Origin: Arcobacteraceae bacterium
GTDB taxonomy: Bacteria > Campylobacterota > Campylobacteria > Campylobacterales > Arcobacteraceae
NCBI GenBank assembly: GCA_023138835.1
Contig: JAGLOP010000012.1
Coordinates: forward strand, 1-64,000
Reading direction: 5' to 3'
Length of the DNA: 64,000 bases
The notes under the pieces were generated by a model that worked only from the letters and a program-made list of their open reading frames with translations, searched no databases and was not told the DNA's origin. Shown here in pieces: positions 50,928-56,620 of this stretch. The translations under genes were made by a program, and so were the position numbers. Positions within the stretch are counted from its first letter, which is position 1. Each line of letters opens with the position of its first letter.

Positions 50928-51048
50928 TATAACGTCTAAATTGAAGGACGATGACCCCTCAATATATTTGCTGATTTCTTTTTATAACCACTATATTAAA
51001 GCTAATTTAGGCTTAAATACTCGCAAGGGTCACCCGTTCTCCTTCCAA
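50928..51048 (-). repeat. attC-like site A, larger part (interrupted by IS; remainder about 52425-52437)
   Basis: About 10 mismatches in about 121 nt to site B, identity stops at TTCCAA. Confidence 0.8.
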
Positions 51049-51113
51049 GTCGCCACCTTAAAATCTACTTAATTTCTTAATTATAACCAACTAAATATAA
51101 ATTAATTTATATT

Positions 51114-52139
51114 TTAAGCAACCAAGTCATTATTATCACTTTTATCTATATATTTACCACAAGCTTTTTCATAAGTTTCAGCATCATAAATACAATTATT
51201 TTTATAAAGTGAATGTGCGATTACTATTAATTTTCTCATTACTGCTATCTGTGCTACTGTTGAATGTTTACCATTATTTTTTAATCTATTATAAAAATAT
51301 TTCATTTGTTCATTATATTTTATTGCTACCATAGTAGCCATAAACAAACTTCCTCTATATAGTTTTATACCAGCTTTAGATATTCTTGGTTTGGATTTAA
51401 CGGATGTTCCTGAGTCTTTTATAATTGGGTCTAACCCAGTTAATGATACTATTTGATTTTTATTTGCATTGGGATAACTGATAAATAAATGCACTAGTAC
51501 AATACCTGCAATTTTACCAATACCTGGTATTGTTTGTATATTTTTATATGTAAGTGATAATTTATTATCTGCTTCAATAATCTCTTTTATTTTATCTAAG
51601 ACTTCAAGCTCTTTATTTTTAAATGATTTTAATCTCTTGCTTATATCTCTAAGCGTATATTTATTACCACCTTTACAATTTAATGCTTCATAGTGATTAC
51701 TTAGTGCTACTCTTTGTTTAACAGTAAACTTATAATAACTCATAAGCTCCTTTATAGTTTCAAGCGTATCATCTATTATAGGTACTCTTATCTCACCTTC
51801 TCTAGCTATTGCAATAGCCTTAGATAACATTATGGCATCAATTTTATCACTCTTGCTTCTATGTCCTAATGCTTTTGCAAAGTTACTTGATTGTTTGGGG
51901 TTTATTATAAAAGATTTTATATTTTTTGAAGCACAAAACTTTTTAGTTAAAAATGAATAACTACCAGTAGGCTCATAAACAAAAGTAAGTTTATCTAAAT
52001 CTTTTTTATACAACTTTTTTAACTTTGAATATAAAGCTTTTAAAGCTGTAATAGTGTTATCAATCTCTAAATCTAAAGAATTGATAGAGATATGAACCGA
52101 AATACTTGCTTTACTAATATCTAATCCGATAGAATACAT
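51114..52139 (-). CDS. IS110 family transposase (DEDD)
   Basis: SIGLDISKASISVHI, FVYEPTGSY, KSDKIDAIMLSKA, IPGIGKIAGIVL, GLDPIIKDSGTSVKSKPRISKAGIKLYR. Confidence 0.93.
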   Translation of the reverse strand: MYSIGLDISKASISVHISINSLDLEIDNTITALKALYSKLKKLYKKDLDKLTFVYEPTGSYSFLTKKFCASKNIKSFIINPKQSSNFAKALGHRSKSDKIDAIMLSKAIAIAREGEIRVPIIDDTLETIKELMSYYKFTVKQRVALSNHYEALNCKGGNKYTLRDISKRLKSFKNKELEVLDKIKEIIEADNKLSLTYKNIQTIPGIGKIAGIVLVHLFISYPNANKNQIVSLTGLDPIIKDSGTSVKSKPRISKAGIKLYRGSLFMATMVAIKYNEQMKYFYNRLKNNGKHSTVAQIAVMRKLIVIAHSLYKNNCIYDAETYEKACGKYIDKSDNNDLVA

Positions 52140-52424
52140 ACTTAGAACCTCACATATTAATTTATTTGAGAGTTCGTTAGGGTAAGAGTTTTACTCTTGC
52201 CTGATTTATAAAACAACGCTATACTTAATTTTACCTCATGATATTCAATCTAGCTTTCACCGATTCAGTCGCCACTCAAATTTTTAGTATAACTATCTGA
52301 CTTGGATTGAAACTAACTAGTTTTATTGTTTAAGAAAACTAGCCGTTTTACGTTTTGTCCGATATATTATATTCACTTACTCTGCTATTTATGATAGCTA
52401 AATTGCTATGTTGTTATTATATGA
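52140..52424 (-). ncRNA. Candidate bridge RNA region in IS110 5' non-coding end
   Basis: Long non-coding 5' end; CTAGTTTT...AAAACTAG hairpin (52317-52342); AGTCGCCAC shared with other IS end. Confidence 0.4.
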
Positions 52425-52505
52425 TGTTTTGTTAGTCTTTTGAGTTTAATTAATAATAAATGTTTATTTTTTCTTTCTCTCAATTCATCTATAATTCTAA
52501 TAGAA

Positions 52506-53312
52506 CTATTTATATTTAATTTTTTTTACATGATGAGTTGAATATAATGTTAACACTGTAAATACTAACCCTCCTAATAAATTTCCTAAAACAGTTGGTA
52601 TCTCATTCCAAAAAATATAATCTGATATAGTAAAGTTACCACCCATAATTATAGAAAATGGAAATAAAAACATATTAACTATAGAATGTTCAAATCCCAT
52701 AAAAAAGAATAACATTATTGGCATCCACATTACAACAATCTTTCCTGTAACAGACGTGGTCATTACAGAACCCACAATTCCTATTGAAACCATCCATCCA
52801 CATAACATTCCTCTAATCAATATAGTAAACCAACCAAAAATTCCATGTTCAGAATATCCAATAGTTCTACTTTCTCCAATTAATGCTATTTTATTCCCTA
52901 TTATGCCTGGATCTGTTTGATATCCGTATGTAAATACAAAAGAGATCATCAATGCAATAGTTAATGAACCTAGTAAGTTTCCTAAAAATACCAAACTCCA
53001 ATTTTTCATAAGAAGTTTTAATGTTACCCCTTTTCTTTTGTCCATTAATGCAAGAGGTATCAATACAAACACGCCAGTTAATAGATCAAACCCCATTAAA
53101 TATAATATTATAAATCCTACAGGAAACAAAATAGCTCCTAACAATGGTGAACCACTTGTAATACTAACAGTAATTGCAAAAACTGCTGATAATGCTAAAA
53201 TAGCACCAGCCATATATGATCTAATCAATGTATCTTGAACAGACATAAAAACCTTTGATTCTCCAGATTCTATCATTTTCCTAACAAAGTTTTTTGGCTT
53301 TTTATAAGACAA
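52506..53312 (-). CDS. Formate/nitrite transporter family protein (cassette)
   Basis: FNT-like six-TM topology; MGFEHSIVNMFLFP, WNEIPTVLGNLLGGLVF. Confidence 0.9.
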   Translation of the reverse strand: MSYKKPKNFVRKMIESGESKVFMSVQDTLIRSYMAGAILALSAVFAITVSITSGSPLLGAILFPVGFIILYLMGFDLLTGVFVLIPLALMDKRKGVTLKLLMKNWSLVFLGNLLGSLTIALMISFVFTYGYQTDPGIIGNKIALIGESRTIGYSEHGIFGWFTILIRGMLCGWMVSIGIVGSVMTTSVTGKIVVMWMPIMLFFFMGFEHSIVNMFLFPFSIIMGGNFTISDYIFWNEIPTVLGNLLGGLVFTVLTLYSTHHVKKIKYK

Positions 53313-53383
53313 TGTTAACTCCTAATATCTTTTAAACTTTTTTAACACTTTCATTATATCTTTTTTCAAAATCACTTAGCTTA

Positions 53384-53517
53384 GACTAACGTCTAAATTG
53401 AAGGACGAGTGGATAAAATGGCTTTAAAATTCGGTCTTTTAGATTTCTTTATGCGAAACTTAAAAGCTTGAATTATCGGCACATTACACTCGTTCTTCTT
53501 CCAATGTTTTGTTATCA
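53384..53517 (-). repeat. attC-like site C
   Basis: TAACGTCTAAATTGAAGGACGAGTG ... CACTCGTTCTTCTTCCAATGTTTTGTTA imperfect inverted repeat. Confidence 0.8.
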
Positions 53518-53531
53518 TTGTTGCTTAAAAT

Positions 53532-53861
53532 TTATTTTGCACTTTCTGCCCATGCAGATAAGCCAAAAAAATAACCGACATAATAAAACCATAATCCAGT
53601 ATTTGGTCTTCCAACAAATTGTATATTAGTAAATATATGTATATCAAAGATAGATAATATCCAAGATATAATTTTTCCTATTAAAGCAAAAGGAAAAATT
53701 ATACCATGTATTATACCACTAAAAAAACCATACGGTTCAGCATATGATAATTCAACATAATGTTTAGCACAACCACTAAAAATAACTATGATTATAAAAA
53801 TACTTATATATTTAAACCATTGTGTTTTTGATATTTTTATCATATAAATTTTATGTTGCAA
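53532..53861 (-). CDS. Lipoprotein-like small membrane protein (cassette)
   Basis: Hydrophobic N-term with FSGC lipobox, second TM. Confidence 0.55.
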   Translation of the reverse strand: MQHKIYMIKISKTQWFKYISIFIIIVIFSGCAKHYVELSYAEPYGFFSGIIHGIIFPFALIGKIISWILSIFDIHIFTNIQFVGRPNTGLWFYYVGYFFGLSAWAESAK

Positions 53862-54112
53862 ATATTTTGTTCTAAGGTTTCAATACAAGCATTAATATTG
53901 TTGTATCCCATACTATTAATTTTATTATTTCTTTGGTTAGATATAGAAATAGCTTCTTTTAGTACATTCATAATTGGATATTTATTTTCTTTATAAATAA
54001 AGTATCTTTTTGTTTTACTATTTTCTCTATTAGGAGAGTAATTTTCTATTGATAATGCTATATCTGCTAGTGATAATTTATTTTGCTCTTTTAAAGCTTC
54101 TTCTTTTGTCAT
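53840..54112 (-). CDS. Hypothetical protein (cassette)
   Basis: Start placed at MTKEEALKEQ (54112) after AAAGGA; upstream part of ORF lies in attC. Confidence 0.55.
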   Translation of the reverse strand: MTKEEALKEQNKLSLADIALSIENYSPNRENSKTKRYFIYKENKYPIMNVLKEAISISNQRNNKINSMGYNNINACIETLEQNICNIKFI

Positions 54113-54133
54113 AAGATTAAAATTCCTTTCTGA

Positions 54134-54269
54134 TGATAACGGCTGAATTGAAGGACGATGACCCCTCAATATATTTGCTGACTTCTTTTTATAACCATTA
54201 TATCAAAGCCAATTTAGGCTTAAATACTCGCAGGGGTCACTCGTTCTTCTTCCAATGATTTGTTATATC
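54134..54269 (-). repeat. attC-like site B
   Basis: GATAACGGCTGAATTGAAGGACGA...TCGTTCTTCTTCCAATGATTTGTTATAT. Confidence 0.85.
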
Positions 54270-54319
54270 TTTTATTGTTTAAATTATAAATATATAGATT
54301 CTGTCACAGAACTATAATT

Positions 54320-54889
54320 CTATTTTTTCTTTAAAGATTTAATTTTCTTATATGCTTCACTAAGTGTAGATTTTAAATTTTTAACTTGAGAAAGTTCTAA
54401 ATAAATAGCTTTAGCACTATATCTTCCCGCTTGAACTGCTACTAAATTTCCACTAGTTGAATTAAAATTGGTAATTTCTAATCCACCATTAGTTTTATAA
54501 ATTGCTTCGTAATTTTTCAACTTTGTAGGATTTTTGGTGATTGATTCTATATATTCTAGTCCTTTTATTAATGAACTTATTTCCTCATAATCAATAAAAG
54601 AAGAAGCTGTAGAGTTATATTTATCATTATTATCTACCTCAATACTTAATCCATATGTTTTAGTTTTAGTTTTAATATTACTAAACTCATATACATCAAC
54701 TTTTAATTTATGGCTATATTTACCATATAAAGTAGCACCAATTTGCTGGTATCCTTTAACTAATATAGAACCTTTAACTTGAGTTACTTTTTCTAGTTTA
54801 GTACTAGGCTTTTCCACTTTATCTTTAGCATTTCCTGCTAGTAATAACATTGGTGCAATTAATGCTATTATTAATAATTTCTTTTTCAT
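54320..54889 (-). CDS. Exported hypothetical protein (cassette)
   Basis: Signal peptide MKKKLLIIALIAPMLLLAGNA. Confidence 0.6.
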   Translation of the reverse strand: MKKKLLIIALIAPMLLLAGNAKDKVEKPSTKLEKVTQVKGSILVKGYQQIGATLYGKYSHKLKVDVYEFSNIKTKTKTYGLSIEVDNNDKYNSTASSFIDYEEISSLIKGLEYIESITKNPTKLKNYEAIYKTNGGLEITNFNSTSGNLVAVQAGRYSAKAIYLELSQVKNLKSTLSEAYKKIKSLKKK

Positions 54890-54912
54890 TAAGCTTCCTT
54901 TTTGTATTTTTA

Positions 54913-55584
54913 TTATTTTAATAGTTTTGTAAATTCTTTAAATTTATTACTTTCTATCCATACACTAGCTTCTGGACTAGCTGGATAAGGTGCAATACTA
55001 TCTAAATCAAAAACTAAAAACCATCTGCTTGAAGAATATAATCTAACCCATATTTTTAATCCATTTGTTCTATACAATACTTGTCTATCTGACAATGTAG
55101 AATATTTTGCTTTAGCAGTATTAAATATTTTTTTAATTTCTAAAACTTCATTTTTTGTAAAATTTCTACTGAGAGCATCATTCGATGCTTTAAATTGTAT
55201 ATTTTTACCACAATATTTTACTGATAAATCGTGATTGTCTCCCGTTACTGTACCTTTTGTTGTACATTTAATTTTTGACTTAAGGTAAAATGTAGATTCA
55301 GTTGGAGCAGTTACATGTAAAATTTTACAATTTTTATTCATAGTTACTAGTACCATATGTGCATTGTCTGCATCCGTAGTTCTGTTAAAGTAAATAGTAT
55401 ATGCATAGCCATAAGCTGTTCTCATAGCTTTATAATCATATACTGTACTTTGCTTCATAACATTTTTTAAAGCAATTTTATAACCATTGCTTTCTTCACA
55501 ACTTGCCATTAAATTTATTGAAGTTAATAAAATAGCAATTCCAATAATAAATTTCTTAATTTTTATTTGACTATTATAAACCAT
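54913..55584 (-). CDS. Exported hypothetical protein (cassette)
   Basis: N-terminal hydrophobic segment, paired Cys. Confidence 0.6.
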   Translation of the reverse strand: MVYNSQIKIKKFIIGIAILLTSINLMASCEESNGYKIALKNVMKQSTVYDYKAMRTAYGYAYTIYFNRTTDADNAHMVLVTMNKNCKILHVTAPTESTFYLKSKIKCTTKGTVTGDNHDLSVKYCGKNIQFKASNDALSRNFTKNEVLEIKKIFNTAKAKYSTLSDRQVLYRTNGLKIWVRLYSSSRWFLVFDLDSIAPYPASPEASVWIESNKFKEFTKLLK

Positions 55585-55811
55585 TTGCCACCTTTATTCT
55601 TTATTTCATAACCGTAACTAAAGTCATTACAGTAAACATTAAAACCATTTTCTATAATAAAACGACTCATACTATTAACATAATCACATGTATAACCATA
55701 CATTGTTATAACTTTTTTTGCTGCTTCTTTTTGTTCATATGACACATCAGTTGCAAAACTATGATTTGTAAATATTCCTAAAATACTTACAATAAAAATA
55801 AATCTCTTCAT
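55563..55811 (-). CDS. Small exported hypothetical protein (cassette)
   Basis: Signal peptide; overlaps next gene. Confidence 0.55.
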   Translation of the reverse strand: MKRFIFIVSILGIFTNHSFATDVSYEQKEAAKKVITMYGYTCDYVNSMSRFIIENGFNVYCNDFSYGYEIKNKGGKWFIIVK

Positions 55812-55861
55812 TTGAGACCTCCATGATTTTAATTTTGACTAAATTAAATAGTCATATTAAA

Positions 55862-55895
55862 ATATTAACAAAAAGATGTCACAGATTGCGTCACA
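55862..55895 (-). promoter_or_regulatory. TGTGAC-N6-TGTGAC-N10-TAATAT promoter, copy 3 (inside a cassette)
   Basis: Minus strand TGTGACGCAATCTGTGACATCTTTTTGTTAATAT. Confidence 0.55.
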
Positions 55896-55920
55896 AAATA
55901 TGCAAATTTATTAATTCTTT

Positions 55921-56057
55921 GATATAACGTTTGAGTTGAGAAACAAGTGTGGCTTCACAACTTAAAAATTATAATTTCTTTCAACTTTATTTAGGCTTGG
56001 AAATTAGCTATTTAAGTCGTAGGAACACTTGTTTCTCTCTCCAACGATTTGTTGTAT
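55921..56057 (-). repeat. attC-like site D
   Basis: ATATAACGTTTGAGTTGAGAAACAAGTGT...ACACTTGTTTCTCTCTCCAACGATTTGTTGTAT. Confidence 0.85.
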
Positions 56058-56069
56058 CTTTATCTAAAT

Positions 56070-56483
56070 TTATTTTGTATTTTTAATTTTAACATTATTG
56101 AAACAACTATTTACTGCTTTAATTGTTTCTTGTATTTCATATGTTGTATAATCGGTAGCTTGTAATTTAATATTTAATTCAGTCTCATTAATTTGATTAA
56201 TATTTATTACAAATACACCAAAATTCTGATCTGCTTTAGCAGCAGCTGTAATAACAGCTTTTGATTCATAGTTTCTTATTTTGACATTATATGCAAGCCC
56301 AGTCATCATAAAACTATCATGGTTTTCTAAAACATCTACAATACACCAAGAAAATCTTTCATAATTACCTTTACCTGTATCACTATATACAGGTTCTAGT
56401 GTACTTATTGTTTTTAATGATGTACACCCACTAAATCCTATTGATATTGCTAAAATAATTATACCAAAAATTAATCTTTTCAT
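56070..56483 (-). CDS. Lipoprotein, unknown function (cassette)
   Basis: Signal peptide with IGFSGC lipobox. Confidence 0.6.
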   Translation of the reverse strand: MKRLIFGIIILAISIGFSGCTSLKTISTLEPVYSDTGKGNYERFSWCIVDVLENHDSFMMTGLAYNVKIRNYESKAVITAAAKADQNFGVFVININQINETELNIKLQATDYTTYEIQETIKAVNSCFNNVKIKNTK

Positions 56484-56563
56484 TTTTAACCTTTAAAATT
56501 GATTTATCAAACTTATCATTTGATGATAAATAGACATATATAAATTTATTTCTTATAAATCTT

Positions 56564-56620
56564 GATACAACGACTGACTTCACCGACAGGTTGCCTGTTC
56601 GGTGCTAGGTCTTGTTATAT
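56564..56620 (-). repeat. Short attC-like site E
   Basis: CAACGACTGACTT CACCGACAGG-TTG-CCTGTTCGGTG CTAGGTCTTGTTATA; stem with one extrahelical T. Confidence 0.85.

Follow-up and report, generated by a model that had tools for sequence, protein, structure and literature searches.

An IS110-group insertion sequence within an integron attC site of an Arcobacteraceae bacterium, and its predicted bridge RNA

The 64,000-nucleotide stretch analysed here (the window; contig JAGLOP010000012.1 of a 2.1-Mb Arcobacteraceae assembly, 86.6% complete) carries an IS621-type element of the IS110 group that very probably finds its target by means of RNA: a bridge RNA with a donor loop and a target loop would supply an attC address to a DEDD-S recombinase. 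The element has intact ends and lies within an identifiable attC site, its protein resembles that of IS621 and keeps the catalytic residues, and its upstream region has an RNA structure conserved among relatives, in which the guides covary with both the element ends and the targets.

The element, its transposase and the interrupted attC site

The element is present in one copy in the genome (assembly search) and is laid out as follows, together with the two parts of the site into which it is inserted.

51048-52423, minus strand: complete IS110-group insertion sequence, with ends set by comparison with the intact attC and with relatives
51114-52139, minus strand: transposase/recombinase of 341 aa (DEDD_Tnp_IS110 + Transposase_20), from Pfam, homology, invariant columns and an AlphaFold model
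52413-52423, minus strand: left end of the IS (right donor, RD), CATATAATAAC, containing a TATAAT box, from junction comparison across relatives
51048-51059, minus strand: right end of the IS (left donor, LD), AAGGTGGCGA-CT, with donor core CT, from junction comparison
52424-52437, minus strand: attC 5' arm left of the insertion, GACTAACAAAAC-AT (R'' + spacer, target core AT), matching the intact attC at 53498-53514
50930-51047, minus strand: remainder of the interrupted attC, TGGAAGGAG...CCTTCAATTTAGACGTTA, a repeat of the attC ends at 53387-53516 and 54137-54268

A preliminary description of this DNA had placed the element at 51048-52424, with about 65 nt of non-coding sequence 3' of the gene and about 285 nt 5' of it. 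Both stretches were recovered, a long one upstream of the transposase gene (52140-52424, 285 nt) versus a short one downstream (51048-51113, 66 nt), and the layout was as described; the end itself had to be moved to 52423, since 52424-52425 belongs to the target as its core dinucleotide (AT), and the opposite end carries the core contributed by the donor (CT). A core dinucleotide is thus present at both junctions, target AT on the left and donor CT on the right, both having T as their second base. Top-strand cleavage by IS621 takes place directly after the core (PMC11208158), so that the target core is expected on the left and the donor core on the right, and the two junctions fit this cleavage position.

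Joining the flanks across the insertion restores an attC: TAACAAAACAT|TGGAAG equals the intact attC at 53498-53514, and GACTAACAAAAC-AT-TGGAAGG matches the intact attC of 53387-53516 (TAACAAAACATTGGAAG). A local inverted-repeat score was too weak to test the attC arms because these are imperfect, and DNA folding and motif comparison were used instead. The rejoined site folded better than 196 of 200 shuffles, while the site of one relative (L021) was not significant in the same test. By motif comparison the array in the window comprises five minus-strand attC, of which one is interrupted and the others lie at 53387-53516, 54137-54268, 55925-56053 and 56567-56620 (the last being short). The 2.1-Mb assembly contains a single further copy of the exact site ACAAAACNTTGGA, and this too is in an attC. 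No integron integrase above the cut-off was found in the assembly (86.6% complete). The array (50930-56620) has a formate/nitrite transporter in one cassette, plus small unknown proteins; another attC array is located at the end of contig C12 (L100).

The transposase matches PF01548 and PF02371, i.e., the DEDD RuvC-like domain and the Tnp domain with the catalytic serine, and D7, E56, D98, D101 and S243 are invariant among 17 aligned proteins. These residues are taken to correspond to D11, E60, D102, D105 and S241 of IS621, D7 having been assigned to D11 by motif as the sequence alignment begins after it. Among solved structures, sequence relatives were confined to IS621 (8wt6, E 7e-22) and ISCro4. 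The AlphaFold model (pLDDT 86.6) best matched the synaptic complexes of IS621 and ISCro4 with bridge RNA (8wt9/9t56), with TM scores of 0.70-0.73 by query and 0.75-0.79 by target. The next structural matches were TasH-tigRNA complexes (TM about 0.43), which fits the known link between TIGR-Tas and IS110. The catalytic DEDD-S residues, the fold, the upstream non-coding region and the lack of IS1111-type inverted repeats together place the element in the IS110 group, IS621 type.

In the window element (52413-52423) and in relatives, TATAAT often lies a few bases inside the left end (CATATAAT / CGTATAAT), and a -10 box may therefore be built into this end. A sigma-70 promoter formed at the circle junction was considered and rejected: TATAAT is common at the left end, but no good -35 was found in the right end.

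The predicted bridge RNA and its donor guides

The 5' non-coding region is predicted to encode a bridge RNA with the following parts.

52169-52409, minus strand: predicted bridge RNA of about 240 nt, ends approximate, from a conserved structure of 37 pairs, 32 with compensatory changes
52394-52409, minus strand: 5' stem-loop ATAGC-AATTTA-GCTAT, read from the sequence, with a similar stem-loop in several relatives
52350-52360, minus strand: left target guide (LTG) GGACAAAACGT, matching attC TAACAAAAC-AT with the core A by rG:dT wobble, from guide-target covariation
52310-52349, minus strand: inner hairpin of the target-binding loop (helix 2: 93% paired, 6 of 8 pairs with compensatory changes)
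52301-52309, minus strand: right target guide (RTG) CAATCCAAG, pairing with CT-TGGA of the L'' side of attC, from covariation
52267-52277, minus strand: left donor guide (LDG) GAGTGGCGACT, of which GTGGCGACT is identical to the right end of the IS; it covaries with the right end across relatives (40/20000)
52246-52266, minus strand: inner hairpin of the donor-binding loop (helix 5: 99% paired, 6 of 7 pairs with compensatory changes)
52234-52245, minus strand: right donor guide (RDG) AATATCATGAGG, complementary, with interruptions, to the left end (T)CATATAAT, from covariation (13/20000)
52181-52201, minus strand: 3' terminal hairpin (helix 6: 95% paired, 7 of 7 pairs with compensatory changes)

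Relatives were collected from genome collections (nearly all Campylobacterota), and 30 upstream regions were aligned and folded with RNAalifold, which returned one unit for the target loop, one for the donor loop and a 3' hairpin, the target loop preceding the donor loop and each forming an internal loop. After removal of three predicted pairs between the two donor guides, the structure consisted of 37 pairs in six covarying helices, with 95.9% of cells paired and compensatory changes at 32 pairs (30 sequences). Double-change cells numbered 177, versus 46.5 after shuffling, and sliding the partner strand reduced pairing from 95.9% in the true register to 30-39%. The fold of the single upstream region was no better than that of shuffles (z -0.6), and covariation was used instead; a search of Rfam gave no match at E up to 1.

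The candidate bridge RNA of the preliminary description, for which covariance folding with homologues had been proposed as the check, is thus supported by comparative evidence, a two-loop structure conserved with strong covariation in the 30 sequences. The hairpin CTAGTTTT-N10-AAAACTAG that it had pointed out at 52317-52342 is present and is the inner hairpin of the target loop. Of the 9-mer that it had noted, AGTCGCCAC, the window contains just two copies, at 51048-51056 and 52267-52275 (expected copies 0.03; 1 of 100 shuffles has two); in sense orientation the 9-mer reads GTGGCGACT, once in the right end of the element and once in the upstream region. An identity of 9 nt between the right end and the 285-nt upstream region arose in 15 of 2000 dinucleotide shuffles. 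On its own the 9-mer repeat would not carry the guide claim. Across relatives the 9-mer in the donor loop changes with the IS end (GTGGCGAC / GTGGCAAC / GTGGTAAC / GTGGAAAC / GTAGCGAC), as had been anticipated for a guide, and the RDG variants ATGAG, ACGAG and ATAAG track the left-end variants CTCAT, CTCGT and CTTAT (13/20000 permutations).

Target guides and attC addresses among relatives

Guide complementarity to attC, the other check that had been proposed, was found at the expected positions for both LTG and RTG, the latter placing ATCCAAG against CT-TGGA. In one sequence a 7-nt LTG match is unremarkable (932/2000), and the target-guide claim therefore rests on covariation. From 36 elements, the guide strings and junction strings were extracted, and every guide was scored on the junctions of its own element and on those of all the others, G:T and U:G wobbles counting half; guide boundaries were set by hand, and the LTG was allowed an offset of +/-1. 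Over 29 elements the LTG scored 7.36 of 9 against its own left target and 4.54 under permutation (z 11.6, 0/20,000), and the RTG scored 4.59 of 6 against its own right target and 2.40 under permutation (z 8.9, 0/20,000). Such permutation does not fully remove relatedness, and the result is supported by a reduced set with one element per clade (z 9.6 for LTG and 7.7 for RTG) and by a register control, in which the signal was gone when the LTG was shifted by 3-4 nt. Permutation made a weak test within the attC clade alone (989 and 1353 of 20000), as the targets there are all alike. The guides of four relatives (L030, L060, L005 and L036) fitted poorly.

By eye, several relatives pair a guide of their own with a target of their own: LTG ACAAAACCT with target ACAAAACCT in L002, ACAAATCGT with ACAAATCGT in L021, GTTTAGCCC with GTTTAGCCC in L042, and RTG CTGCTAG with target CTAGCAG in L018. 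Many relatives (L006, L007, L013, L042, L060, L062, L063, L072 and L075) have the RTG GAGGGTC-AG in common, at CT-GACCC-type sites (target GGGTCAG-type), and their left guides differ despite this common RTG.

The window element groups with L002, L003, L010, L018, L021, L059 and L093 (support 100/99; the window clade). All available left junctions of this clade, eight distinct sites, carry TAACAA of the attC 5' arm, and five insertions of the window-clade type are in clear attC sites; in the right flanks of the window element, L010, L018, L020 and L021 the second arm of attC is present, with CGTTA or CGTTG at its end, and it is partial in those of L003 and L004. Among the attC sites of its genome, the window guide scored highest on the type that it occupies (8.5 for attC1 and attC2, 7.0-8.0 for six others), while the best-fitting targets of the L021 guide were AATC types and that of the L018 guide was the short attC type. 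In L002 the usual right end has been lost, after about 2440, beside a GC-rich inverted repeat. L009 contains, after about 4090, remnants of a bridge RNA of the window-clade type, which lie on the opposite strand and adjoin the right end of a different family element.

A second clade (L012 with L011/L034; support 100/100) is inserted at the opposite attC arm, with guide ATAACGGCT and target ATAACGACT. This arm, TAACGACT|GAATAT, with a different guide, is seen in L012 (around 1150-2700), L027 and L011/L034. On the tree, elements with other targets separate the second clade from the window clade; this arrangement, based on few elements, suggests that attC addressing originated twice. We lean towards the broader view that, within one Campylobacterota bridge-RNA family, reprogrammed target loops gave rise to attC addressing on two or more occasions: the window clade would be addressed to the R''/L'' arm (TAACAA...|TTGGA) and L012/L027/L011/L034 to the R'/L' arm (TAACGACT|GAAT), with guides of sub-lineages tuned to attC subtypes and with G and U placed where wobble would cover attC variation.

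Proposed mechanism, alternatives and known systems

By analogy with IS621, the 5' non-coding region would be copied into a bridge RNA (about 240 nt) in which a 5' stem-loop is followed by the target-binding loop, then by the donor-binding loop and finally by a 3' hairpin. Once the element is excised as a circle, its right and left ends would abut (junction AAGGTGGCGACT-CATATAATAAC) and be paired with LDG (GTGGCGACT) and RDG (ATATCATGAG) of the donor loop, respectively; the target loop would read attC. The DEDD-S recombinase, with its RuvC-Tnp active site, would exchange strands beside the core dinucleotide, and insertion would keep the target core AT on one side and the donor core CT on the other, leaving attC split between spacer and L''; a split attC should stop recombination of that cassette end. 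Transcription, the RNA-protein complex, the circular intermediate, strand exchange and the loss of attC function are the steps that we infer here.

Were the transposase itself to recognise attC, by sequence or by folded structure, the RNA matches would be incidental. The folding of attC sites into hairpins and the single place in attC occupied by all window-clade members would suit such recognition, but recombinases that are 50-60% identical sit at unrelated sequences, the RNA loops of most match their own site, and the RTG of L018 has changed together with its target, so that we regard it as very improbable. Even less credit is due to the view that the 9-mer is a terminal or subterminal repeat acting as a protein-binding site, or a product of chance, with no guide involved: short repeats near IS ends are common and there are only two exact copies, but the inner copy is found at a constant position of the donor loop and varies together with the sequence of the end, and the chance of the identity is 15/2000 in the window element alone.

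A somewhat stronger competitor, still an unlikely one, accepts the bridge RNA and takes the element for a former user of it, now an inactive fossil in a degenerating cassette array devoid of an integrase. The single genomic copy, the lack of an integrase above the cut-off in the assembly and the truncation or frameshifting of several relatives speak for it; against it stand an intact open reading frame with its catalytic residues, both ends and all four guides intact, and an LTG that still pairs with the site. RNA-guided insertion at attC by a bridge-RNA element is our strongly preferred reading.

The bridge RNA was defined in IS621 by Durrant et al. 2024 and Hiraizumi et al. 2024 (PMC11208160, PMC11208158). 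The window element shares with IS621 and ISCro4 an upstream bridge RNA, a target loop followed by a donor loop, and LTG/RTG and LDG/RDG flanking the internal loops (PMC11208160, PMC11208158), as well as the CT core, a discontiguous RDG and the DEDD-S recombinase; it differs in sequence (about 24% identity in the structural match), in its occurrence in Campylobacterota, in its predicted RNA of about 240 nt with a 3' hairpin, and in having attC of integron cassettes as address. ISEc21, an IS110-group element with a demonstrated seekRNA, likewise has the upstream non-coding region and the IS110 guide order (PMC11187229) but a different target, the comparison being by literature only.

Elements of the IS1111-attC group (ISKpn4, ISPst6, ISPa21, ISPa25) also insert at one end of attC and have a non-coding-region RNA with short matches to both attC strands (PMC11187229); for the attC-targeting ISKpn4 and ISPst6, the use of a seekRNA matching both strands was demonstrated by Siddiquee et al. 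2024 (PMC11187229). In that group the RNA is downstream of tnp, subterminal inverted repeats are present and the top-strand match comes first, whereas the window element has its RNA upstream, lacks such repeats and has the bottom-strand guide first. Membership in IS1111 was rejected, as the element lacks inverted repeats at subterminal distances of 7 bp and 3 bp (4/12 matches at IS1111 offsets; the best 12-nt terminal match, 8/12, is at other offsets), and so was a guide RNA of the IS1111 type downstream of tnp, the RNA of the window element being upstream. Judged from its sequence, by RNA position, guide order and the lack of subterminal repeats, the element is a member of the IS110 group. 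The attC-addressed RNA-guided recombinase envisaged in the preliminary description gains from attC-matching target guides that covary with their targets, while the general idea was already established by tests on IS1111 elements (PMC11187229).

In the open-access literature searched, no IS110-group family that targets attC was described for Campylobacterota. Neither the mechanism nor the attC target is new by itself; what appears undescribed is that this family combines them and has clades that differ in attC address. A viral collection contained no relative, and the best plasmid matches were distant IS110 transposases (about 32% identity or less).

The bridge-RNA family described here is absent from Rfam and has clear covariation of all four guides, and the sequence comparison indicates that attC targeting guided by RNA is not confined to the IS1111 group. 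Cassette arrays contain many near-identical but non-identical attC, and close relatives carry guides for different subtypes and arms, so that the family provides a natural data set on bridge-RNA reprogramming and on the tolerance of mismatch and wobble. If attC addressing did arise repeatedly, the family would record successive natural reprogrammings in the direction of a recombination hotspot that is constantly renewed by cassettes. The insertion also suggests a way in which elements of this kind may freeze integron cassettes.
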